61,193 nucleotides of DNA, taken from the NCBI GenBank assembly GCA_903913865.1, contig CAIWMU010000171.1, positions 1-61,193 on the forward strand, written 5' to 3'. Source of the stretch: an uncultured Verrucomicrobia subdivision 3 bacterium (lineage in GTDB: Bacteria > Verrucomicrobiota > Verrucomicrobiia > Limisphaerales > UBA8199). The notes under the pieces were generated by a model that worked only from the letters and a program-made list of their open reading frames with translations, searched no databases and was not told the origin of the DNA. A program made the translations under genes and the position numbers. Of this stretch, positions 387-23,380 are shown piece after piece; within the stretch, counting starts at the first letter, position 1, and each line of letters starts with the position of its first letter.

Positions 387-2144
387 TTATTTGTGCAGCG
401 GGGTGACTTTGCCCCGGCTCAGGGGCACAGGTCCGGTCTGGTAGGCTGCAGCACTGTGGTCGGTGCCGTGGCAGGTGACAGAGCAGTAGCCCTGGCGGTT
501 GCCGGTGGAGACATATTCGAGCCGGCCATTGGCAGATTCAGCCGCGTAGTTGCGGTTGAAATTGATGAGGCTCTTGTTGTTCGCAACGCCGTGGGAGTCA
601 TGGCAGGTGGTGCAGGCAGTCTGCTTGTCCACGATGTGTTTCCGGTGGAGGGGGAAACTCTGGTCGGAGAGGATGCTGTCGCGATTGTGGCACTTGTAGC
701 AGAGGTCGTAGGAGGCGGCCGTCTCAGTGGTGAAATCGGTGGTGATGAGCTGACGCTCCAGGATGGGGGTGAATGCGGATCCATGGGGACCGTTGGGACC
801 TCCAGAACCTGTGTTCGAGCCCTGGCTGTTGTTATGGCAGGCGCTGCAATAGATAATGCTGGAGGGGGTCATCGGGGAGAGGAGACTCGGCACCGAGGGG
901 TTCTTGCCGGAGGCGATGACGGGGTGATAGGACTGGTTGGCGGGATCGAAGGCCAGCCGGGTATTCGTCTGGGGGAACTGGCGGTTCACACGGGCCTGTC
1001 CGCGGGAAACGCTGTCGGCATGGCAGCGGAAGCAAAGTTCATATTCGCGGGTGACGGTCGGAATGACTGCGCCGCTGGCGTTGACGCCCTTTACACCGGC
1101 AAGTGCGCCGGAGGCGTTGGGGGCGGTGGCCTGGGAAGGGTTGGAGGCGTGTCCGTTATGGCAGTCCGCGCACTCGACATGGCGCCGGGTGGGGTTGATG
1201 GCATCCTCCTGCGGATCATGCGCCCCGGTGTTTGCTGTGATGGGGTGGATGCTCAGCTTGTTGAATTCGGCGGCGATGTTTTTCGTGGCGACGTTCCCGG
1301 AATGGCAGGAATAGCAGTTTTGCTCCTCATCCGCGAACGTGAGAAGGCGGGGCTTGGTGCCGGCCTTGTGCGGGGAATGGCAGTTTGCGCAGGCGTTCGC
1401 AGCGACGGAGTGCTCGCGGGAGTTGGGCCAGGGGTTGATGCCGGCACCGTTCCAGGTGGCCGGGGATGTGGCATGGCTGGACTGCTGCCACTGGGTCATG
1501 TCATGACAGGTGATGCAGAGGGCGGACCCGAAATTCTCACGCACCAGGAATTTGCCAAAACGGTTGTTGTGCGGATCGTGGCAGGAGGTGCACTGGACCT
1601 TGCCCTCCCCGTCGAGCCGGACCTTGTTGACCAGGGTGGCAGGATCCCTCAACTGACCTGCCGCGATGGCGAGGGAATTGTCGTAGGTGAAGGAAACCGG
1701 ATGGTCATCGGAAAGATCCCTGCCGATGCGGCTGGGGCCGATGGGCATTCTGGTGACACCCCCCTGAAGGGTGATCGGGGTGGGCCGGTTGTCGAGCATG
1801 CCAAGAGCGACCGTGCCGTCATGACAGCTGAGGCAGAGCTTGGATGAGCCGGTGGGCTGGCCGACCGAGGCTTTCATCGTGGAGCTCTGATAGGGGGTGT
1901 AGGGAGCCGTGGACATTTTGTGGTTCCACAGCGGAGTGGCATCGGCGGCGCTATGCGGGGTGTGGCAAAAGAGGCAGATCTCGGATTCGGAGACGGCCTT
2001 GATGCTGCCCGGGCCGGAGGATGAGAGGTTGTGGGGCGAATTCAGGATGCTGTCCGCCCAGGCCGTGCCGGCGGACAAAGTGCTGGCGATCAGCAGGGGG
2101 AGGACCCCCCGGCGCAGCAGGTGGATTGAGTGGGCGGTATTCAT
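387..2144 (-). CDS. Exported 12-heme c-type cytochrome
   Basis: This 585-residue protein has a Sec signal peptide (hydrophobic core about residues 14-28, cleavage near AWA-D). It carries eleven CXXCH motifs: CLFCH, CLSCH, CTSCH, CITCH, CANCH, CYSCH, CADCH, CFRCH, CSACH, CYKCH and CTTCH. Near the C terminus it has an unusual CX3CH motif (CSVTCH), giving twelve possible hemes. The N-terminal NSPHNLS..C.FCH.PH pattern recurs in the tetraheme protein at 8162-8899, so the two are related. Its ATG overlaps the stop codon of the upstream NHL gene (ATGA), and it is the last gene of the conduit operon. Its position after a beta-barrel gene suggests a periplasmic or cell-surface partner of an outer-membrane conduit. 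That location is inference. Confidence 0.9.
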   Translation of the reverse strand: MNTAHSIHLLRRGVLPLLIASTLSAGTAWADSILNSPHNLSSSGPGSIKAVSESEICLFCHTPHSAADATPLWNHKMSTAPYTPYQSSTMKASVGQPTGSSKLCLSCHDGTVALGMLDNRPTPITLQGGVTRMPIGPSRIGRDLSDDHPVSFTYDNSLAIAAGQLRDPATLVNKVRLDGEGKVQCTSCHDPHNNRFGKFLVRENFGSALCITCHDMTQWQQSSHATSPATWNGAGINPWPNSREHSVAANACANCHSPHKAGTKPRLLTFADEEQNCYSCHSGNVATKNIAAEFNKLSIHPITANTGAHDPQEDAINPTRRHVECADCHNGHASNPSQATAPNASGALAGVKGVNASGAVIPTVTREYELCFRCHADSVSRGQARVNRQFPQTNTRLAFDPANQSYHPVIASGKNPSVPSLLSPMTPSSIIYCSACHNNSQGSNTGSGGPNGPHGSAFTPILERQLITTDFTTETAASYDLCYKCHNRDSILSDQSFPLHRKHIVDKQTACTTCHDSHGVANNKSLINFNRNYAAESANGRLEYVSTGNRQGYCSVTCHGTDHSAAAYQTGPVPLSRGKVTPLHK

Positions 2145-3208
2145 TGCGGGCCGATGTATTTAAGAACCTGTAGACGGCGGTTGTAAGAATCGGAAATGTA
2201 AATTTCGTTGGCTTTGTTGATGGCGATACCGTTTGGAAGCCAGAACTGGCCCGGGCCGGTGCCGTTCTCGCCGACGGTGAGCAGGAGTTGGCCCTGAATG
2301 TTGAAAATCTGGAGGTTGTCGAACAGCCCGTCGATCACATAGATGTGCCCCAAGCCATCCACCGCCACACCTTTGGGACGGCCGAAGTGGCCGGGGGTAT
2401 CTCCCAGGCTGCCGATCTGGGATTTGAAGGTTCCGGAAGCATCAAAGATCTGGATCCGGCCGTTCATCGAGTCCGTGACATAGACGTTGCCTGACAGGTC
2501 GGTGGCGATATGGGTCGGGAAGTTGAACTTGCCGGGTTCGGCACCACGTCCCCCGTAGGCACCCAGAAAGTTCCCGGAGAGTGAATAGGAACAGACCCTG
2601 TGCTGCTGGGAATCGACGACGAGCAACTTGTCCTTCAGGAGGGTGAGGGCGGCCGGTCGGGCGAGTTCATTTGTGATCAGAAAAAGAAGCTTTCCCTGAT
2701 CGTTCATGGCCACCACATGGCCTGCGGCGGAATCTGCCACAAAGAGGGTGGAGCCGGACTTTGCGACGGACACCGGGGAATTGAATTCCAGCTTTCCGGC
2801 CTTTTGAAAGCGGAACCACTTCTTCTGGCGGCGGTCGAGGTAGGACACGCTTTTTTCTGCAGTGTCTGTGATGCACAAATTATTGTCCTCATCACAGGCG
2901 ATGCCAAAGGGGCGGACAAGGCGTTCGTTCCCTTTGCCTGCGCCGGTGAGCCAGTTGGCCATCCTGCCCAGGGTCGAGACTTTGATACCCGCATCCGAGG
3001 GGGATGAGATGGATTGGATGAGGGCGATGCGGGCCGGGAGCGGGGGTGGCGGCCAGACGATGCCGGTGCCGGAGGCTGGATCCTTTGGTTTCGCCCCGGC
3101 GGAGGTGACCGGGAGCAGCAGGGACAGGACGAGGATCATCAATGCCGCCAGAGCCCCGGGGAAGGGGCTGGCAGGTGCATTCCCGGATGGGTGCGATCCT
3201 CGAAGCAT
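2141..3208 (-). CDS. Exported NHL-repeat beta-propeller protein
   Basis: This 355-residue protein has an N-terminal hydrophobic export segment (about residues 17-37) followed by NHL-type repeats. Examples are FPTHIATDLSGNVYVTDS, RPKGVAVDGLGHIYVIDG and LPNGIAINKANEIYISDS, consistent with a six-bladed propeller. I chose the ATG at 3208, which gives a signal sequence directly before the export segment. An upstream in-frame start would add a 54-residue stretch that overlaps the barrel gene in another frame and looks non-coding. The start lies 1 nt past the barrel gene stop, and the 3' end overlaps the 12-heme cytochrome ATG. NHL propellers are usually binding scaffolds. Here the gene sits between a barrel and a cytochrome, so a structural role in the conduit is plausible. 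It is a paralogue of 6941-8026. Confidence 0.85.
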   Translation of the reverse strand: MLRGSHPSGNAPASPFPGALAALMILVLSLLLPVTSAGAKPKDPASGTGIVWPPPPLPARIALIQSISSPSDAGIKVSTLGRMANWLTGAGKGNERLVRPFGIACDEDNNLCITDTAEKSVSYLDRRQKKWFRFQKAGKLEFNSPVSVAKSGSTLFVADSAAGHVVAMNDQGKLLFLITNELARPAALTLLKDKLLVVDSQQHRVCSYSLSGNFLGAYGGRGAEPGKFNFPTHIATDLSGNVYVTDSMNGRIQIFDASGTFKSQIGSLGDTPGHFGRPKGVAVDGLGHIYVIDGLFDNLQIFNIQGQLLLTVGENGTGPGQFWLPNGIAINKANEIYISDSYNRRLQVLKYIGPQ

Positions 3209-3209
3209 A

Positions 3210-5270
3210 CTAAAACACGCGACGCATCCGCACCAGGAACATGTGGCGTGTACGTTCCTCGTTCCGGAGGTAGAGTTCGTATTCGTAGTTGTATTCAGCC
3301 CGCAGGGTGGTGCGGCCGACCGAGTAGTCGATGCCCGGGCGAATCGTGGCGAGGGTCTGCTCCACGCCATCCCCTTCGCGCCGTGAAATACCGCCCTCGA
3401 TGTTGAACGCCATGGATGTGGTCAGGAGGTTGCGATAGCGGGTGATGAAGCTGTAGCTCTGCTCGCTGCGACCGGAATCGATGTAGCGGTTCCATGCCTC
3501 GTTGACATCGGCGGAGATGGAGCTTGTGCCGTCCAGATTGAAGGAGACACCCTGGAAGAGCCGGGTGGAGCGGTAGGTGGAGAAGGTGGAATCGTAGTAT
3601 TCCTCCTCGGCTCCAGCGCGCATCCAGCGCCAGCTGAGATCGGTGCCCACAGCGAAACTCAGGAGATCCTGAACCCGCAGTTCCTTGCTGGCGTTGTTGG
3701 CGAACAGGTTGAGGCGGCTGTAAATGCCCAAGAGATTGTTCCAGAAATCTATCCGGATGCTGACCGATTCGCTGAGGGCCTCGTAATTCCCCTCGGGAGT
3801 GGGTTCAGCCTGATAATCGGCCACAACGGAGTCGTCCATCGTGGGGACCCCGGCATTGATCTGGCGCTGGATCCGGGTGAGGGCTCCCTCGACAAACACC
3901 ATGTAATCGATCCCCCGTGTGTATTCCCGGGTGCGGGAAATGTTGTAAATGCGGAGGCTGGAGGAGCGGACGTTGGCCTGATTCAGGAAGAAGTTTCCGG
4001 GAGGGGCCCCGCCGGTTCCGGTGGTGAAGCTGTGGGGTTCGTTTTCAATGGAACTGACCCCCATTGAGTCCACGTGCTCCGCCAGCAGGCTGTTGCTGAG
4101 GCGCAGGCGGCTGATCGATGAGAGTCTTTTGGTGTAACTTTCGCCAAAGCCGGCTCCTAGACGGCGGGTGAAGCCATTGCCCCCACCATCGTGGACCTCG
4201 TTGTCCGACCCGCGCAGTAGCAGGGTGGAGGTGAGGCTGTCGTAGAGTTGGTGGCGAAGCTGGCCCTGGCCGTAGTAATTGTCGGAATTGAAGCTGGCGG
4301 TCTCGAACCGGTCGTAGTTCAGGTCGTAGAGGCTGTTCAGGTTCGGGTTATGCTCCAGGTTCAGACCGGTGCGGGCGGACGCCTCATCGCTGGGTTCGAG
4401 GTTGTTCTCGCGGTGCGTGAAATTGGCGCTGCTGATGAGCGTGTGCTGGGCGCGGGAACCGAAGGTCTCATTGTCCCCGATGGCGAACAGGTGGTCCTGT
4501 CCCTCGCCGATTCTTCCGGCATCCTCCCGGGAATACTGGTTGAAGGTGTAGTTGAGGGAACTGCCGCCCCGGGCCCGTTCATGGCGGGCTTCGGCAGCAA
4601 CGGTATCATCGTTCAGCGTTGTGATGCCGTTGAAATGGATGATGTTCGTTGAGACATTGGCGACGACATTTGTGTAGGTGTAGGCGCGCCCGTAGGCGGT
4701 CTCCTCACGGTGCGTGTAACTGGTGTTGAAAGTCCAGGGCTTGTGGGTGTAAACAGCGCGGGAGCCGTAGCGCCAGCTGTCCACGGTGAGACGACTGAAG
4801 AAGTCGTAATCGCGGAAGGAGTGGTCGTAGTCGCCAAAAATGCTGCCGTGGAGCGGTTTGCTGTCGAGGATATCCACCGTTCCACTGAAGCGGCCGAGGT
4901 ATTCGTATTGGGAATCCTTGGAGTAGGAGCCGGAACTGGCATTCTGGTGGGCCCATCCGAATGACCCCTCCGTATTAAGGTGGAACTCCACCAGATTCGG
5001 ATGGTAAACCGAGCCATCCAGAACGACACCGGTCATCGGTCCGACGAACAGGCGGTCATACCTCACGCTGGTGTCCGAATTTCGGAAGGAGGTTTCCTCA
5101 CTGCGCCCCTCGGCATAGACACCGGCGCTGACTTCAGACACGCGGATCTTGAGCCATTGGGGTTCCTGTGCGCGCGGGTCGAGGAACTGGGCGGCCGCCT
5201 GCCGCGCATGGGTGAGGGAGGTGGCGACGAGCGCCAGGGGCCAGTATCGTAAAAGAGATGGAGGCTTCAT
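3210..5270 (-). CDS. Outer-membrane beta-barrel, putative porin of a cytochrome conduit
   Basis: This 686-residue protein has a signal peptide (cleavage near AAA-Q, about residue 27). The mature part is rich in alternating polar/aromatic strands with Tyr, Arg, Ser and Asn. It ends in a terminal Phe (VRMRRVF), the usual signature of barrels inserted by the Bam machinery. No CXXCH motif is present. MtrB/PioB and the Geobacter OmbB/ExtA barrels play this role beside multiheme cytochromes, wrapping them to make an electron path across the outer membrane. I cannot assign this protein to one of those families by eye. Translational coupling supports a joint complex: its ATG overlaps the stop of the 19-heme gene upstream, and the NHL gene starts 1 nt after its stop. 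It could also be a general porin. Confidence 0.75.
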   Translation of the reverse strand: MKPPSLLRYWPLALVATSLTHARQAAAQFLDPRAQEPQWLKIRVSEVSAGVYAEGRSEETSFRNSDTSVRYDRLFVGPMTGVVLDGSVYHPNLVEFHLNTEGSFGWAHQNASSGSYSKDSQYEYLGRFSGTVDILDSKPLHGSIFGDYDHSFRDYDFFSRLTVDSWRYGSRAVYTHKPWTFNTSYTHREETAYGRAYTYTNVVANVSTNIIHFNGITTLNDDTVAAEARHERARGGSSLNYTFNQYSREDAGRIGEGQDHLFAIGDNETFGSRAQHTLISSANFTHRENNLEPSDEASARTGLNLEHNPNLNSLYDLNYDRFETASFNSDNYYGQGQLRHQLYDSLTSTLLLRGSDNEVHDGGGNGFTRRLGAGFGESYTKRLSSISRLRLSNSLLAEHVDSMGVSSIENEPHSFTTGTGGAPPGNFFLNQANVRSSSLRIYNISRTREYTRGIDYMVFVEGALTRIQRQINAGVPTMDDSVVADYQAEPTPEGNYEALSESVSIRIDFWNNLLGIYSRLNLFANNASKELRVQDLLSFAVGTDLSWRWMRAGAEEEYYDSTFSTYRSTRLFQGVSFNLDGTSSISADVNEAWNRYIDSGRSEQSYSFITRYRNLLTTSMAFNIEGGISRREGDGVEQTLATIRPGIDYSVGRTTLRAEYNYEYELYLRNEERTRHMFLVRMRRVF

Positions 5271-6919
5271 TTGGCGGGGGTGCTGGCCTGGGCTTTAAGG
5301 AAGAATTTTGCGGCCCCGAAATGCGGATCATGGCATGAGGCGCAGGCTTTATCGGAGGCGCCCGCATGACGTTTGACGGCGGCCATCTCCTTCTCCTCGT
5401 GGCACTCGAAGCAGACCTGACGGGGGTTCTTCGTCAGCAGGCTCTTTTCGGCCGAGAGATGGGGATCGTGGCAAGTGGTGCACTCGCCATTGGCGGCGGG
5501 GTCGTGCTTGAACTTTGCCTTCTCGATGGATTGGACGAGCTCCTCGTGGCAATCCGCACAGAGTTTGCCACCCGGTTTCAGGACCAGCTTCTTGATGTCC
5601 CCCTGGTGCGCGTTGTGGCAGGAGGTGCATTCGCCGTTTTCCACCGGCTGATGTTTCACCTTCGCCTTTGCAATCTTCTCCATCAGGTCCTCATGGCACT
5701 CGGCGCAGAGCTTACCATCCGGTTTTGTGAGGAGCTTCTTGGTGGCGGACTGGTGCGCGTTGTGGCAGGAGGTGCACTCACCGTTTTCGACCGGTTGATG
5801 CTTGAATTTCGCCTTGTTGAGCTTCTCCATCACATCCTCATGGCACTCGGCACAGAGTTTGCCGTCCGGCTTGGAGAGGAGTTTTTTGGTATCTGACTGG
5901 TGCGGGTTGTGGCACGAGGTGCACTCACCGTTCTCAACGGGCTGGTGCTTGAACTTACCCTTGTTGAGCTTGTCCATGACATCCTCATGGCACTCGGCAC
6001 AGAGTTTGCCATCCGGCTTGATGAGGAGTTTCTTGGTATCCGACTGGTGGGGATTATGGCAGGAGGTGCACTCGCCGTTCTCAACGGGCTGGTGCTTGAA
6101 CTTCGCCTTGGCCAGTTTCTGGCCGATGTCTTCATGGCATTCCGCGCAGAGCTTGCCGTCCGGCTTTGCCAGGAGTTTTGCGTTGGCTGAATGGTGCGGG
6201 TTGTGGCAGGAGGTGCACTCACCGTTTTCGACCGGCTGATGCTTGATCTTTGCAGCCTTGAGCTTTTCCGAGGCCTCCTTGTGGCAGTTCAGGCAGAGTG
6301 AACCCTGCTCCTTCACGAGCAGGCCCTTGAATGCCGAGGCATGGGGTTGATGGCAGGTTAGGCATTGGCCCTCCACGACCGGCTTGTGTTTGGATTTCGA
6401 GGCGTCCGGGATCGGGTCGTGGCAATCGGCACAGAGGGTGGCACCGGGCTTGAGCAGGAGCTTCGGCAGCCCGCCGCCGTGCGGATTATGGCAGGAGGAG
6501 CATTCGCCACCATCGACGGGCTGATGCTTCACCTTTTTCTTGTCGAGGAAATCATCATGGCAACCAAAGCAAACCTGCTTTTGGCTGCCCTTCATTTTGA
6601 CAGAGAACCGTGATTCGTGGCACTCCTTGCACTGCTTCTCCTCGAACGGGGGATGAGGATAGAACTTCACCGGTGCAAATGCCGGCTGGTTCGTTAAAGT
6701 TTTGACGAGTACGAGCGGTTTTCCGTTTTCATCGACCGGCCGTGCCGGTTGATTGGTGGCCCCGGGGGAGGGTACACCATCGAAGAAAAAGCTGAGGAGC
6801 TTGTAATGCTTCTCGCTCGCACAACCCGCCCAGAGGCCGATCCCGGCCAGGAGCGCCAGTGCGGGCCTCCAGGCCTTGCGCAGGCGGATTGCGGGGGTGG
6901 ATGAGGTGGTTGGTTTCAA
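5267..6919 (-). CDS. 19-heme lipoprotein built from tandem two-heme modules
   Basis: This 550-residue protein has an N-terminal hydrophobic segment ending in LWAGC, a plausible but non-canonical lipobox (Trp at -3). I count nineteen CXXCH motifs. From about residue 130 they are arranged in tandem modules of 49 residues, each with two hemes. The module pattern is KHQPVENGECTSCHNPH, then LLxKPDGKLCAECHED. The KH of each module may supply distal axial ligands. The motifs match the doubled-CXXCH family. The regular array suggests an elongated heme wire anchored by lipid in a membrane. It follows the NHL lipoprotein gene by 21 nt and overlaps the barrel gene ATG. A role as the periplasm-spanning or conduit cytochrome is inferred from context. 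Confidence 0.9.
   Translation of the reverse strand: MKPTTSSTPAIRLRKAWRPALALLAGIGLWAGCASEKHYKLLSFFFDGVPSPGATNQPARPVDENGKPLVLVKTLTNQPAFAPVKFYPHPPFEEKQCKECHESRFSVKMKGSQKQVCFGCHDDFLDKKKVKHQPVDGGECSSCHNPHGGGLPKLLLKPGATLCADCHDPIPDASKSKHKPVVEGQCLTCHQPHASAFKGLLVKEQGSLCLNCHKEASEKLKAAKIKHQPVENGECTSCHNPHHSANAKLLAKPDGKLCAECHEDIGQKLAKAKFKHQPVENGECTSCHNPHQSDTKKLLIKPDGKLCAECHEDVMDKLNKGKFKHQPVENGECTSCHNPHQSDTKKLLSKPDGKLCAECHEDVMEKLNKAKFKHQPVENGECTSCHNAHQSATKKLLTKPDGKLCAECHEDLMEKIAKAKVKHQPVENGECTSCHNAHQGDIKKLVLKPGGKLCADCHEELVQSIEKAKFKHDPAANGECTTCHDPHLSAEKSLLTKNPRQVCFECHEEKEMAAVKRHAGASDKACASCHDPHFGAAKFFLKAQASTPAK
5470..6530 (-). repeat. Tandem 147-bp coding repeats (two-heme modules)
   Basis: Within the 19-heme gene the same landmark recurs every 147 bp (near 5487, 5634, 5781, 5928, 6075, 6222 and 6369), with a slightly shorter step of 138 bp to 6507. 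The central copies are nearly identical at the DNA level, so the array probably grew by recent unequal recombination and may vary in length between strains. Confidence 0.85.
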
Positions 6920-6940: not shown

Positions 6941-8026
6941 CTATTTCTTCTTGAGGAAGCCGTAAACGCAGATTTTTTTGCCACCCGCCTGATTCGAGAT
7001 GTAGATCAGGTGGTCAATTTTGTAGCCGGGCGCGACGAACTGCTCAAATGAGCCCATGTTCTCGCTGTCAATGGCGATCCCGGCGGGAAGATAAAGCGAG
7101 CCGGCCGTGTCCGCCTGCCCGAAGAACATCAGGAGGCGGCCTTCCGCATCGAACATTTGGGCGACCGTGGCAGCCGCATCCACGACGTAAACGATGCCTT
7201 GGGGGCTGACAGCCACGCCCTTGGGGAGGGCAAAACGGCCTGGTTCTATGCCCATTTCGCCGATGGCACGGAGATATTTTCCCTCGGCGTCGTAAACCTG
7301 AACAGCGAACCCGCCCGTGTCCGACACATACATCCGACCCTGGGCGTCCAGGGCGATATTGGTGGGGGATTTCAGCTGGGCTTTTTCATCCTTCGGATCT
7401 CCGGGCACCTGGAACAATTCGGCACGGGTTGCCTTGTTGTAAACATGAACGCAGTGGTTGCTCAAATCGGTGACGAAGATCCTGTCCTTCGAAAGGGCGA
7501 TCCCGCAAGGCTTCATGGTGCGGCCTGCCCCGATTGTGGATTTAAGGCTCCCTGCCTTGTCGTAAATAAGGACCTGGCCGCGCAGGGTGTCGGTGACGTA
7601 GCGGTTTTCGGCTTCATCCACCGCGATGTTCAGCGGGAAGTGCATGGCTTGGTTGCCGGAGGGCTTCAAAAACCGGATGGTCTTGTTCTGCAGATCCACA
7701 GTGCCCACGTTCTTGGGCTGGGTGTCACAGATGTAAATCTTCCCCTTTGAACTGGCGATGCCGTAGGGTTTCAGAATGGGCCGTTGGATGCGCTGGCCGC
7801 CAAGCACGAACTTCTTGAATTTGCTCGGCTCGCCCAATTCTGATTCGGAGGAAAAGCTGGTCAGAAACTGGATTCGTGGCTCGTCGGGAGCGGGCGGGTA
7901 AAATGTGTAATCGGCGGGGGGCGGGGTGGTTTTGCAACCGGTGAGCAGGAGCCCTGCGAGCAGCAGGGAGGCAGGCAGCAGCTTGCGGATCGCCGTTCCT
8001 ATGAAATGGTTCATCATACGTTGCAT
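6941..8026 (-). CDS. NHL-repeat beta-propeller lipoprotein
   Basis: This 361-residue protein has a canonical lipobox (LLTGC, Cys about residue 31) after a hydrophobic segment, so it should be a lipoprotein. NHL-type repeats follow, for example MKPCGIALSKDRIFVTDL, SPTNIALDAQGRMYVSDT, LPKGVAVSPQGIVYVVDA and LPAGIAIDSENMG. It starts the tight five-gene conduit cluster and lies 21 nt before the 19-heme gene. ATG codons at 8026, 8017 and 8014 are all possible starts. It is related to the NHL gene at 2141-3208, so each large cytochrome is preceded in the operon by a propeller gene. Function is not known; a docking or assembly scaffold for the cytochromes is inference. Confidence 0.85.
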   Translation of the reverse strand: MQRMMNHFIGTAIRKLLPASLLLAGLLLTGCKTTPPPADYTFYPPAPDEPRIQFLTSFSSESELGEPSKFKKFVLGGQRIQRPILKPYGIASSKGKIYICDTQPKNVGTVDLQNKTIRFLKPSGNQAMHFPLNIAVDEAENRYVTDTLRGQVLIYDKAGSLKSTIGAGRTMKPCGIALSKDRIFVTDLSNHCVHVYNKATRAELFQVPGDPKDEKAQLKSPTNIALDAQGRMYVSDTGGFAVQVYDAEGKYLRAIGEMGIEPGRFALPKGVAVSPQGIVYVVDAAATVAQMFDAEGRLLMFFGQADTAGSLYLPAGIAIDSENMGSFEQFVAPGYKIDHLIYISNQAGGKKICVYGFLKKK

Positions 8027-8161: not shown

Positions 8162-8899
8162 TTACTTGATATGGCAGGTCCGGCAGATCAAGCTGCCACG
8201 GCCGGAGGAATCCGATCCGCTGATCTTGACCATGATGCCGCTGGACGGGGCGCTGCCGACCTGCTTATGGACGTCATGGCAGGAGGTGCATTGCATCTTC
8301 TGATTGGTCAGCAGGGCTTCGCCGATGGTCTTCCCGGTCAGGGAGGAGCCGGACCAGGTCGCGGGAACCGGTGCCGCCACGCCAGGGAGGCCCGGGATCG
8401 TGTCGCCGATCTTGTATCCGGTCACGGGGGTCGGATCGTTCAACTCGCGATCCTTGTCAGCCAGAGCCTTGTCATAGACGAAGGAGATGGGATGGGTGTT
8501 GTGCAGGTCCGGTCCGATCTGGGCTTCGGGGGCGATGAATTGAGAGGTGGTGCCTGTGAGGCCGCCAATGCTCTGGTTGACCGCCACTGTGCCGTCATGG
8601 CAGCTCAAGCAGGCCATGGAGGCGCCATCCGGCTTTGATGGGATGGTGGCATCCAGCTTGGTGCTCTTGGGGGTGCCGGCGTTATACATCGTGAACGAGG
8701 CCTTTGTGGTTTCATGGGCCCAGAGGGGGATGATCTGGTCCTTGTCCGTATTGTGCGCCTGGTGACAGGGGCTGCAAACGCCCTTGCGGGTGTTCCAGGA
8801 GGCCTGCGACAGGTCGTGGGGGGAATTAATGACACCTGCCTGGGCGACCGCGGGAATCGCGGCGACCAGACCGATCAACAGGAGGTTTTGCTTCTTCAT
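8162..8899 (-). CDS. Exported tetraheme c-type cytochrome
   Basis: This 245-residue protein has a clear Sec signal (KKQNLLLIGLVAAIPAVAQA) and four CXXCH motifs: CSPCH, CLSCH, CTSCH and CRTCH (the last at the extreme C terminus). The INSPHDLS..C.PCH.AHN region resembles the start of the 12-heme protein. I chose the ATG at 8899 because it precedes the signal peptide; longer in-frame starts would add about 100 residues that overlap hemA and look non-coding. It stands between the CbcL-like gene/hemA and the conduit operon, separated from the NHL lipoprotein by 135 nt. It would suit a soluble periplasmic shuttle between the inner-membrane oxidoreductase and the conduit. This is inference. Confidence 0.9.
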   Translation of the reverse strand: MKKQNLLLIGLVAAIPAVAQAGVINSPHDLSQASWNTRKGVCSPCHQAHNTDKDQIIPLWAHETTKASFTMYNAGTPKSTKLDATIPSKPDGASMACLSCHDGTVAVNQSIGGLTGTTSQFIAPEAQIGPDLHNTHPISFVYDKALADKDRELNDPTPVTGYKIGDTIPGLPGVAAPVPATWSGSSLTGKTIGEALLTNQKMQCTSCHDVHKQVGSAPSSGIMVKISGSDSSGRGSLICRTCHIK

Positions 8900-9068
8900 A
8901 CTACTTTTAGCGCGTGCTATTTTTGTTTGTGGCGAAAGCGGCGGGATTGCCGCGTCAGGCACACCATCGACAGGATGGCGTGGTTCCAACGCGGTGATAA
9001 ACCATGGGTGTGCACACCCGCCGGTTTCCGCGTCGAAATTGTTGAGGGGTTGCTCATGGGGTTCCGAT

Positions 9069-10130
9069 TCATGCTGGCACACCTGCCAGAATGCAGTCGG
9101 GAGCAGATTCCCGTTTGGGGGGTGGACCTGAGAACCGCGCAAGGAGGGCGGTTGCCCGCTCGTTGATGATCTCCTGGCTGCGCACCAGTTCATGTTCACG
9201 GTTCTTCACGTTCTCCCGGACGATGTTCTCCAAATGGTCCACGTTGTAAAGATAGACATTTGGCAGTTCCTGCACATTGGTGTCAATATCCCTTGGAACG
9301 GCGATGTCGATCAGGAAAAGGGGTTGGTTGCGCCTCGCTGTCATGACCGTGGCCAACTCAGCCTTGTGCAGGATGGTCTGCGGGCTTCCGGTGGATGTGA
9401 CCACAATGTCCGCCCGGGCGACTCCCTGCAGACATTGATCGTGGGGAATGGCTTCACCCCCAAATGCGGTTGCGAGATTCACAGCCTTCTCGGGTGAACG
9501 GTTGGAAACCAGAACGGAGCGGACCCCCTTCTTGGAAAGATGCTTTACGCAGGCCTCCCCCATTTTGCCCGCGCCGATGATCATCACTGTCTTTTTGGAC
9601 AGGTCTGAATCAAAGATACGTTCCGCAAGGTCCACCGCCACACTGCCAACAGAGGTTGATCCCCGTCCAATGCCGGTCCGGGTGCGGATCTCCTTGGCCG
9701 TCTGGAGGGCTGTCTGGAAAAGGCGGTTGGTGATCTTGCCGGTGAGGCCGAACTCCTGGGCGGTCTGGTAGGCCTGCTTGACCTGACCTGTGATTTCCGT
9801 CTCCCCGATCACCAGGGAATCAAGCCCGCCCGCCACCGTGAACAGGTGCTCGACGGCTGCCCGGCCATGCCTGATATAAACATATGGCCGATAGTCGAGT
9901 TCCACACTTGAGAGGGTCTCGAACAACTTCTCCAAAGGTCGGGCCACCTGACTGGCAACCCCGTAAATCTCGACCCGGTTGCAGGTTGAGACGACGACGA
10001 CCTCCTGAAGATTGCCTGCCAGTTTGAGCCGACAGCCGTGGCAGCGCAGGCGTGAGGCTTGGACAGCCAGTTTCTCGCGCACTTCCACAGGCGCGGTCTT
10101 GTAACTAAGGCCAACGACGAAGAGGTTCAT
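9069..10130 (-). CDS. hemA: Glutamyl-tRNA reductase
   Basis: HemA reduces glutamyl-tRNA to glutamate-1-semialdehyde, the first committed step of haem synthesis by the C5 pathway, in the cytoplasm. The catalytic Cys50 lies in STCNRVEIYG. The NADPH-binding region has VMIIGAGKMGEACVKHL. The HGRAAVEHLFTVAGGLDSLVIGE block is typical of the family. At 353 residues it is shorter than the common form of about 415. The C-terminal dimerisation domain seems largely missing, ending shortly after the helix containing RSQEIINERATALLARF. Short versions exist in some bacteria, so truncation need not mean loss of function. Its place among multiheme cytochrome genes fits a high haem demand. Confidence 0.93.
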   Translation of the reverse strand: MNLFVVGLSYKTAPVEVREKLAVQASRLRCHGCRLKLAGNLQEVVVVSTCNRVEIYGVASQVARPLEKLFETLSSVELDYRPYVYIRHGRAAVEHLFTVAGGLDSLVIGETEITGQVKQAYQTAQEFGLTGKITNRLFQTALQTAKEIRTRTGIGRGSTSVGSVAVDLAERIFDSDLSKKTVMIIGAGKMGEACVKHLSKKGVRSVLVSNRSPEKAVNLATAFGGEAIPHDQCLQGVARADIVVTSTGSPQTILHKAELATVMTARRNQPLFLIDIAVPRDIDTNVQELPNVYLYNVDHLENIVRENVKNREHELVRSQEIINERATALLARFSGPPPKRESAPDCILAGVPA

Positions 10131-10415
10131 GCGAAATCGAGTGGGGTGGGGCGAAAGACGTTGGGGCAGGCGGGTGTGGATGATGCACCACTGGCCACCT
10201 TACGGGCTTGACTGGGCTGCCGTTCCGATTGCACGCCATCAAGCTAGCCGGAAGTGGTTTTGTTGCTTGTCTGGAATTGGCATTTTTTAACCATTTCTTG
10301 CCCGATCACGACAACAAATAGTTGGGCTGCGTGGGGGCACTCTCCCCCGGAACGGCGCTTTGGGATAGGGGTGTGGATCGATCACACCCCATTCCGAATC
10401 AGAAGGCGGCTGGCA

Positions 10416-12173
10416 TCAGCCTTTTTTGTCCGTTGCAGCGGGTGGCGCTGTCGGTTTTGCCGGGTTTGGACATTCCACAGGGTCCTTTTCCAGGGGATGC
10501 TCCTCCTCCTGCCAGTGATGGGAAACCTTGCCGTTCACGCAGGCCCAGTTGATGGGGTAAATGTCCGGATCAAAGATCACATGGTAGAAATGCCAGACGA
10601 CGATGGCGAGGCAGGCCAGAATCGCCTCATAGTAATGGATCGCAGTGGCCACATCCACCGTCCACCGGGGCAGAAACCCTGTGACATCCATCTTGAACCA
10701 GATCATCAACCCGGTGAGCCCCATGATGAGCGTGCCCCAGACCACGGCCCAGTATTCCATCTTCTCCGCGTAGCCGAAGCGGCCGATCTGCGCTTTCTTC
10801 TCGCTCATTCCCAGGAGATAACGGCCGTTTACGAGCAGGTCTGTGGCATCCTTTTTGACCGGCCACAAATCCTTCACCAGTTTCCTGCCTTCTGGGGAGC
10901 TGATCACATAGTAGATGTGGTAGAGGCCCCCCAGAAGCATGACCACTCCCGAAATCCGGTGGCTCCAGCGGCGCAGCATCTCACTGGAGCCCATCAGGGT
11001 TGTGAGCCAGGAGTCCGGGTATTTGAGGGCGAACCCTGTGACAGCAAGGATGATGAAGCTGACCGCGAGAATCACATGCTGGAGCCGTTGCGAGAGGCTC
11101 ATGCGAACGACGTTGAAGTTCGCGGCGTTGAACCGGGCGCGGACTTTTCTAAACAGCAGCAGTCCATTATGCAGCAGCATGAATCCAATGGTTCCGAAGA
11201 TCAGGACAAGGTAGATCCTGCGCACCCACCAGTTGATGTTCCCACCCGCATCTGTTGCCGAGGCCTGGCCTCCGGCATCCACGTGGACTTTGCTGGTGAC
11301 AAAATTCTCGGAAGCGCCGGGGTGGCAGTTGCCACAGGTTTTGGCGAGATTGGAGGAATGGATTGTGGATCCCGGGTCGGTCGAGGGCAGGACCTTGTGG
11401 AACCCATGGCAACTGCCGCAGTTTGCCGCTGTTGCAGAGCCATATTGTGCGGCGAGGCCGTGATAGCTGCCAAAGAAAGTTGTCACACGATCCTTGGGCA
11501 GGTTGTAGCGGGTGTTCATCCGCTCCGAGGCGTGGCAGGTGCTGCAAACGTCGGCGGAAATCGCGAGCGGGGAACGGTTCTTGGGATCGCGGGTGTTGTG
11601 CTCGGCATGGCAATCTGTGCAGGTGGGGGCATCCTTGTGCCCGGCTTTGACTGCCTTGCCGTGAATGCTCTGGCCAACGTCCTCGGCAGCCTTCTCATGG
11701 CAACGTCCGCAGGTTTGGGCAATGCGTGAGAAATTCAGGGGGGAATCGGCCGAGGTCGGCGGGACGATGCCGTGGTTTCCATGGCAATCACGGCAGGCGG
11801 CCACATTCGCCTTCCCGCGACCCGCTGCCAGTCCGTGGACACTTGTGCCGTAGGCTAGGGATTGCCGCTGGTGGCACTGCCCGCAATCGACAGCCTTGGC
11901 GGCTACGGCGTTGTCCGGGTGGTCGGAGGTGAGGTCCGAGTGACAGCTGGCGCAACTGTTTGTCTTGTGGGTGCTTCCTTTCAGCCGGGCTGCATCCACA
12001 TACAGGGAGATGGATCCTCCTGAAGCGTTCGTTTTGGAAAGTTCCTTGTCTGAGTGGCAATCCAGACAAACGCTGTCCTTTATTTCGGCGGCGGCGACCC
12101 TCCCGGCGAACGTGGTGCAAAACATGGCGAGGGCTGCAGCAGCCCCTGCGAAGATCCATTTGATTCCAAACAT
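10416..12173 (-). CDS. CbcL-like nine-heme/cytochrome b quinol oxidoreductase
   Basis: This 585-residue fusion has a signal peptide, then a periplasmic domain with nine CXXCH motifs: CLDCH, CASCH, CGQCH, CRDCH, CGRCH, CTDCH, CSTCH, CGSCH and CGNCH. A membrane domain of about five helices follows, from about residue 325, with histidines placed for b-hemes (LQH, SHR, GLYHIYY, WHFYH). The architecture matches CbcL of Geobacter sulfurreducens, a nine-heme domain fused to a HydC/FdnI-type cytochrome b that passes electrons from the quinol pool to the periplasm during low-potential metal respiration. I use the ATG at 12173 just before the signal peptide. The longer in-frame start would overlap hisB on the other strand. 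It is the probable inner-membrane entry point for the conduit genes downstream. Confidence 0.88.
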   Translation of the reverse strand: MFGIKWIFAGAAAALAMFCTTFAGRVAAAEIKDSVCLDCHSDKELSKTNASGGSISLYVDAARLKGSTHKTNSCASCHSDLTSDHPDNAVAAKAVDCGQCHQRQSLAYGTSVHGLAAGRGKANVAACRDCHGNHGIVPPTSADSPLNFSRIAQTCGRCHEKAAEDVGQSIHGKAVKAGHKDAPTCTDCHAEHNTRDPKNRSPLAISADVCSTCHASERMNTRYNLPKDRVTTFFGSYHGLAAQYGSATAANCGSCHGFHKVLPSTDPGSTIHSSNLAKTCGNCHPGASENFVTSKVHVDAGGQASATDAGGNINWWVRRIYLVLIFGTIGFMLLHNGLLLFRKVRARFNAANFNVVRMSLSQRLQHVILAVSFIILAVTGFALKYPDSWLTTLMGSSEMLRRWSHRISGVVMLLGGLYHIYYVISSPEGRKLVKDLWPVKKDATDLLVNGRYLLGMSEKKAQIGRFGYAEKMEYWAVVWGTLIMGLTGLMIWFKMDVTGFLPRWTVDVATAIHYYEAILACLAIVVWHFYHVIFDPDIYPINWACVNGKVSHHWQEEEHPLEKDPVECPNPAKPTAPPAATDKKG

Positions 12174-23250: not shown

Positions 23251-23360
23251 TGGGTTCATCTCCAAAGCCCGGGGATACGCCGTCCCCGGCGTTATCGCGG
23301 GTTTGATCCCCCAGAATCAAAAACCTCTGTCGGAAGGGCTGTAAGCCCGGCATGTGAAAG

Positions 23361-23380
23361 CCCGGGCTGCAAGGCCCGGG
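23361..23380. repeat. Short GC-rich hairpin
   Basis: CCCGGGC (23361-23367) and GCCCGGG (23374-23380) form a perfect 7-bp stem around TGCAAG. It sits beside the GAAGCCCTGCAGGGGCGACA segment and probably belongs to the same dispersed element. Confidence 0.5.

Follow-up and report, generated by a model that had tools for sequence, protein, structure and literature searches.

A probable extracellular electron transfer island in a Limisphaerales bacterium, with its own cytochrome b/c fusion and a conduit-linked second hemA

A probable extracellular electron transfer island was identified at one end of the window, a 61,193-nucleotide stretch from an uncultured Verrucomicrobia subdivision 3 bacterium of the order Limisphaerales (contig CAIWMU010000171.1). 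Judged from sequence, the island appears to have its own quinol injector, a fusion of a nine-heme c-type domain with a cytochrome b that falls in a sister clade of the CbcL/MtrH/MtoC proteins, together with a dedicated paralogous glutamyl-tRNA reductase, hemA2, that would raise the supply of heme. Because the window is an entire contig (C171 of the genome G000), the island may extend beyond position 1. A first-pass annotation, made from the DNA letters alone, had placed a nine-heme/cytochrome b fusion, a hemA gene, a tetraheme cytochrome and a conduit on the same strand, and this is borne out by their coordinates, by nine CXXCH motifs plus PF01292 in the fusion, by the TIGR01035 match of the hemA product and by four CXXCH motifs in the tetraheme protein. 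All genes of the island are on the minus strand, and in order of transcription they are as follows (lengths in amino acids, aa):

12173..10416, minus strand: nine-heme c / cytochrome b fusion, 585 aa, with nine CXXCH motifs and then PF01292.
10130..9069, minus strand: hemA2, paralogous glutamyl-tRNA reductase, 353 aa, TIGR01035, with the catalytic motif TCNRVE.
8899..8162, minus strand: tetraheme cytochrome with a signal peptide, putative periplasmic shuttle, 245 aa, four CXXCH motifs; its orthologues adjoin hemA2 in relatives.
8026..6941, minus strand: NHL beta-propeller lipoprotein, PF01436, lipobox LLTGC.
6919..5267, minus strand: 19-heme MtrA/DmsE-like lipoprotein, putative wire through or into the porin, 19 CXXCH motifs, lipobox LWAGC, TIGR03508.
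5270..3210, minus strand: large outer-membrane beta-barrel according to its predicted model, candidate conduit porin.
3370..2141, minus strand: second NHL beta-propeller protein, PF01436; the true start is probably inside the open reading frame (ORF).
2144..387, minus strand: 11-heme cytochrome by motif count (plus one CX3CH), putative extracellular terminal protein, PF09699.

The last five genes, from the NHL lipoprotein to the 11-heme cytochrome, overlap or are closely packed, and the gaps from the fusion through hemA2 and the tetraheme gene to the first NHL gene measure 135-285 bp. The four cytochromes account for at least 43 c-hemes (9, 4, 19 and 11). Cell locations of the island proteins were assigned by eye from signal sequences and lipoboxes.

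The C-terminal half of the fusion, behind the nine CXXCH motifs, is a cytochrome b561-type domain (PF01292, 58 bits) that groups with the formate dehydrogenase gamma subunit in Pfam, NCBIfam and Protein Data Bank (PDB) searches. The predicted model of the protein (mean predicted local distance difference test score, pLDDT, of 82.7) has five long C-terminal helices, and its best structural match is FdnI of E. coli (Foldseek E 5e-6; Z 15.5 over 204 residues). Four histidines, H366, H405, H513 and H528, are conserved in 99-100% of 104 aligned rows from all groups and align with residues that we take to be the b-heme ligands of FdnI. Two glutamates, E470 and E516, are common to nearly all CbcL/MtoC rows and were found in none of the 18 FdnI rows, and H531 is specific to the clade of fusions to which the window protein belongs. 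Given the FdnI-like fold, the conserved heme histidines and the glutamates common to the CbcL family, quinol oxidation by the fusion appears well founded, and the protein is probably a quinol:cytochrome c oxidoreductase with a diheme b domain.

To place the fusion, full-length homologues from the Geobacterales, the Burkholderiales, other phyla and the window's own order were used in a maximum-likelihood tree of the b domain (60 rows). The CbcL/MtoC reference rows were chosen by architecture, heme count and taxon or family rather than through the GSU0274 record, and the outgroup consisted of formate dehydrogenase-type cytochromes, the sole type from plasmid records, with PhsC/NrfD-type (thiosulfate/nitrite reductase) rows left out. 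A phylogeny against FdnI had been proposed in the first-pass annotation; the FdnI rows separate at 100/100, and the fusion does not fall with these formate dehydrogenase cytochromes. It forms one clade (96/97) with its order-wide orthologues and with fusions from Aminicenantota and Opitutae, while a second clade (97/99) holds Geobacterales CbcL, Burkholderiales MtoC-like proteins, Planctomycetes fusions and a second Verrucomicrobiota fusion, of which the window's genome also has a copy. The approximately unbiased (AU) test rejected joining the window clade with Geobacterales CbcL (p 2e-6), with CbcL plus the MtoC-like rows (p 2e-8) and with the clade of the paralogue in its own genome (p 3e-49). 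A common origin of all b/c fusions was borderline (AU p 0.049), and trees made from the c domain only were poorly resolved. A hydrophobic sixth helix at the C-terminus is found in 15/15 Geobacterales CbcL proteins, 9/9 Burkholderiales MtoC-like proteins and 12/12 intact paralogues versus 0/17 members of the window clade. The b domain of the window fusion is 29-30% identical to that of Geobacterales CbcL, as opposed to 56% for the genome's paralogue. By these comparisons, the fusion is no orthologue of CbcL, and its clade is sister to CbcL/MtrH/MtoC. The best sequence match of the c domain, PDB 28pb_A, was guessed to be Geobacter CbcL and was dropped as a reference because its kin are Geobacterales seven-heme ORFs of about 400 aa that lack a fused b domain and mostly have a separate b gene adjacent.

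The paralogue, a relative of CbcL with 741 aa and 11 hemes, is encoded on contig C93 (L067:10703-12925). Directly before it is an ImcH-like gene, and the pair spans L067:9205-12925. The 511-aa product of the latter has three N-terminal helices, one CX3CH and six CX2CH motifs and similarity to NapC/NirT, which fits the description of ImcH (PMC6295460). A window-type fusion accompanies a CbcL relative in 29 of the 35 fusion-bearing genomes. Many relatives carry the window-type fusion next to the ImcH-like gene and the CbcL relative, and in one (G007) all three run on directly into hemA2 and the full conduit. An NrfD-type gene and a tetraheme gene are located upstream of the pair on C93, and the pair recurs in many relatives. 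Hemes 1-5 of the C93 protein are 46% identical to the window fusion, compared with 31% for the copy of another relative, which suggests that the N-terminal heme domain was exchanged between the window fusion and its paralogue.

Turning to hemA2, its product scores 365 bits on TIGR01035 (cut-off 209.6) and has the GlutR_N and NADPH domains as well as the catalytic cysteine of the TCNRVE motif, which is intact in every HemA copy inspected, of both types. The housekeeping gene of the same genome, hemA1, is on contig C145, and nearly all of 117 relatives carry this housekeeping type, whose identity to the copy in the window is about 40-50%. The window type was found in 27 genomes including the window's own (53-81% identity; one is a fragment), and in a quick tree the hemA2 proteins formed a single clade (Shimodaira-Hasegawa-like approximate likelihood ratio test 99) within Verrucomicrobiota HemA. 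Neither HemA copy of the genome (window 9069-10130; L272:8263-9303) has a Pfam match to the C-terminal GlutR dimerization domain. This is not distinctive of hemA2, because hemA1 shares it and other Verrucomicrobiota HemA proteins inspected are also about 350 aa long. Many hemA2 products end in a variable C-terminal tail with a near-terminal cysteine (e.g. ...TACPG) that is absent from one hemA1 copy inspected.

The surroundings of the two hemA types differ. Of 27 hemA2 loci, 24 have a cytochrome of four or more hemes on the same strand within 9 kb, as do none of 23 hemA1 loci (Fisher p 2.4e-11), and this cytochrome is mostly the immediately next gene. A further hemA2 locus with a cytochrome is present in REEB243 (G132, Verrucomicrobiota), which also has close relatives of hemA1 and of the CbcL paralogue. 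The gene heads two kinds of conduit, the window type and a second one composed of nine-heme proteins of about 780 and 600 aa, a 7-8-heme cytochrome and a porin of about 700 aa. Elsewhere in the phylum hemA2 is rare: one other sampled genome has it, at 53% identity, with no cytochrome within the 1.5-kb flanks. The best reading of this pattern is that hemA2 is a dedicated paralogue that would couple heme supply to conduit expression. The first-pass remark that a hemA inside the island matches its heme need was therefore right, and understated. Among the titles and abstracts listed in searches for hemA together with extracellular electron transfer clusters, none pointed to a conduit-linked second hemA.

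As for the conduit itself, the 19-heme protein scores 225.8 bits on TIGR03508 (cut-off 192.2), a score that its repetitive sequence may inflate, and it matches PDB 6r2q_A, a chain of the Mtr complex. The barrel model (mean pLDDT 83.4) has more than 25 long antiparallel strands, and the protein has no Pfam match to MtrB/PioB (PF11854). In the path that we propose, menaquinol would be oxidized in the inner membrane by the diheme b domain of the fusion, and the electrons would cross its periplasmic hemes to the tetraheme shuttle, pass from there to the 19-heme lipoprotein inside the beta-barrel and reach the 11-heme protein outside the cell, presumably on their way to an extracellular acceptor. 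The product of hemA2 would catalyze the first committed step of heme synthesis, and its gene may be co-located so that heme supply rises with the heme-rich conduit. A second, diverged conduit cluster is present in the same genome (G000:C161:20000-35482; L273), with a porin of 29% identity, homologues of the NHL and 11-heme proteins and no hemA2 within that stretch.

The complete gene order of the island is retained in four relatives (G001, G007, G008 and G102), and the same conduit, headed by hemA2, is found in four more (G010, G017, G029 and G112); in several relatives the fusion is directly upstream of a hemA2-headed conduit. This conservation excludes chance clustering. The tetraheme gene is duplicated in tandem in G001, a congeneric sister species, where both copies lie between hemA2 and the NHL gene (L035:9273-10905). 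As the first-pass annotation had anticipated, the fusion also co-occurs with conduit genes, being present in 14 of 18 genomes that bear the porin type (p 7e-6), and with hemA2 (p 6e-7; both over 117 genomes, many of them fragmented metagenome assemblies), but these Fisher p-values, like the one for cytochrome linkage, are overstated because loci and genomes of one order are not independent. Several other points weigh against the proposed reading. hemA2 is missing from 16 of the 35 fusion-bearing genomes, and many relatives have the fusion without an adjacent window-type conduit. The gaps of 285 bp between the fusion and hemA2 and of 169 bp between hemA2 and the tetraheme gene mean that a single transcript for these three genes is not assured, and a promoter scan gave no signal above chance. 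Finally, the best Foldseek E-value of the barrel was to the Mtr barrel 6r2q_B, but the TM-score was low (0.32), so the claim goes no further than a large outer-membrane barrel.

The direction of flow could also be the reverse of the one proposed, with extracellular Fe(II) or another donor feeding the conduit and the fusion reducing quinone in the manner of MtoC. MtoC homologues do occur in Fe(II) oxidizers, and the two directions cannot be told apart by any known sequence feature (PMC6295460). On the other hand, the CbcL relative in the genome is encoded next to an ImcH-like protein, a combination that in Geobacter is known to serve outward respiration, and related conduit-bearing freshwater Verrucomicrobia are described from anoxic humic water in the account of He et al. 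(PMC5615132). Neither observation is decisive, and we regard inward flow as unlikely. Less probable again is that hemA2 is a passenger, an old duplicate that sits beside cytochromes by happenstance and has no special tie to heme supply. Duplicates commonly persist, and three of the 27 loci lack a nearby cytochrome, two of them being cut by contig ends; yet the 24/27 versus 0/23 association spans two conduit types and many families, and the catalytic motif has been kept.

The least likely of the alternatives is that the fusion is simply CbcL in Verrucomicrobiota, as the first-pass annotation had named it. The nine hemes, the same domain order and full-length homology at 31-35% favor that name, which we nevertheless consider very improbable because of the AU rejection, the missing sixth helix and a b domain less like CbcL than that of the C93 paralogue. 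The layout that had been called identical to Geobacter CbcL does agree in heme count and domain order and departs from it in heme spacing and in the sixth helix. A quinol injector feeding the conduit is still indicated by a membrane b/c fusion with all four b-heme histidines that is encoded with the conduit, only not under the CbcL identity. Because "CbcL-like" fusions fall into two old clades in the tree, labeling by heme count and layout alone will misname such proteins.

Beyond the outward-flowing island with its own injector and hemA2, a broader and more tentative idea seems plausible to us. Besides CbcL and ImcH, the order may have a quinol injector of a separate, third class, often encoded in tandem with these two, along with a conduit-dedicated hemA2 that would switch on heme locally and bypass hemA1 control. 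The matching of heme supply and demand in cells that build very heme-rich conduits is little studied, and a private first-committed enzyme tied to conduits across a Verrucomicrobiota order makes the question of heme supply testable. The island also adds a set of injector, shuttle and conduit to extracellular respiration in the Verrucomicrobiota, so far proposed from genomes alone. Apart from the island, the window has a match to the Acido-Lenti-1 RNA at 23335-23380 on the minus strand (39.1 bits versus a gathering score of 37).

Compared with known systems, the fusion resembles CbcL/MtrH/MtoC in having an N-terminal multiheme c domain fused, in the same domain order, to a diheme HydC/FdnI-like cytochrome b, in its nine c-hemes, as in G. 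sulfurreducens CbcL, and in the b-heme histidines and the equivalents of E470 and E516. It differs in having five rather than six helices in the membrane half, in heme spacing, in H531 and in its separate clade. CbcL itself hands electrons to the triheme cytochrome PpcA in G. sulfurreducens (PMC9129911). Homologues of CbcL/MtrH/MtoC are known from 15 phyla, with four from Verrucomicrobia (Zhong & Shi 2018, PMC6295460), and a CbcL outside the Desulfuromonadia would thus not be as notable as had been supposed. The conduit is similar to MtrAB, MtoAB and PioAB in that the gene for an MtrA/DmsE-like multiheme protein adjoins a large barrel gene, but it has 19 hemes versus 10, NHL proteins and a porin without a Pfam match to MtrB/PioB. 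Porin-multiheme cytochrome clusters of Verrucomicrobia have already been published and proposed for respiration to humic substances (He et al. 2017, PMC5615132). They share with the island the phylum, the combination of porin and cytochromes and the proposed extracellular electron transfer; as described there, however, an eight-heme periplasmic cytochrome adjoins the porin in place of the 19-heme lipoprotein. The island also has two NHL proteins, the b/c fusion and hemA2, hemA being unmentioned in the passages on those clusters. The nearest parallel to hemA2 is in Shewanella, another cytochrome-rich bacterium with a duplicated heme-pathway enzyme, namely the paralogous ferrochelatases hemH1 and hemH2 (PMC6664582). 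These act at the last step of the pathway and their location in a conduit operon is not reported, whereas hemA2 would serve the first committed step and heads conduit clusters.

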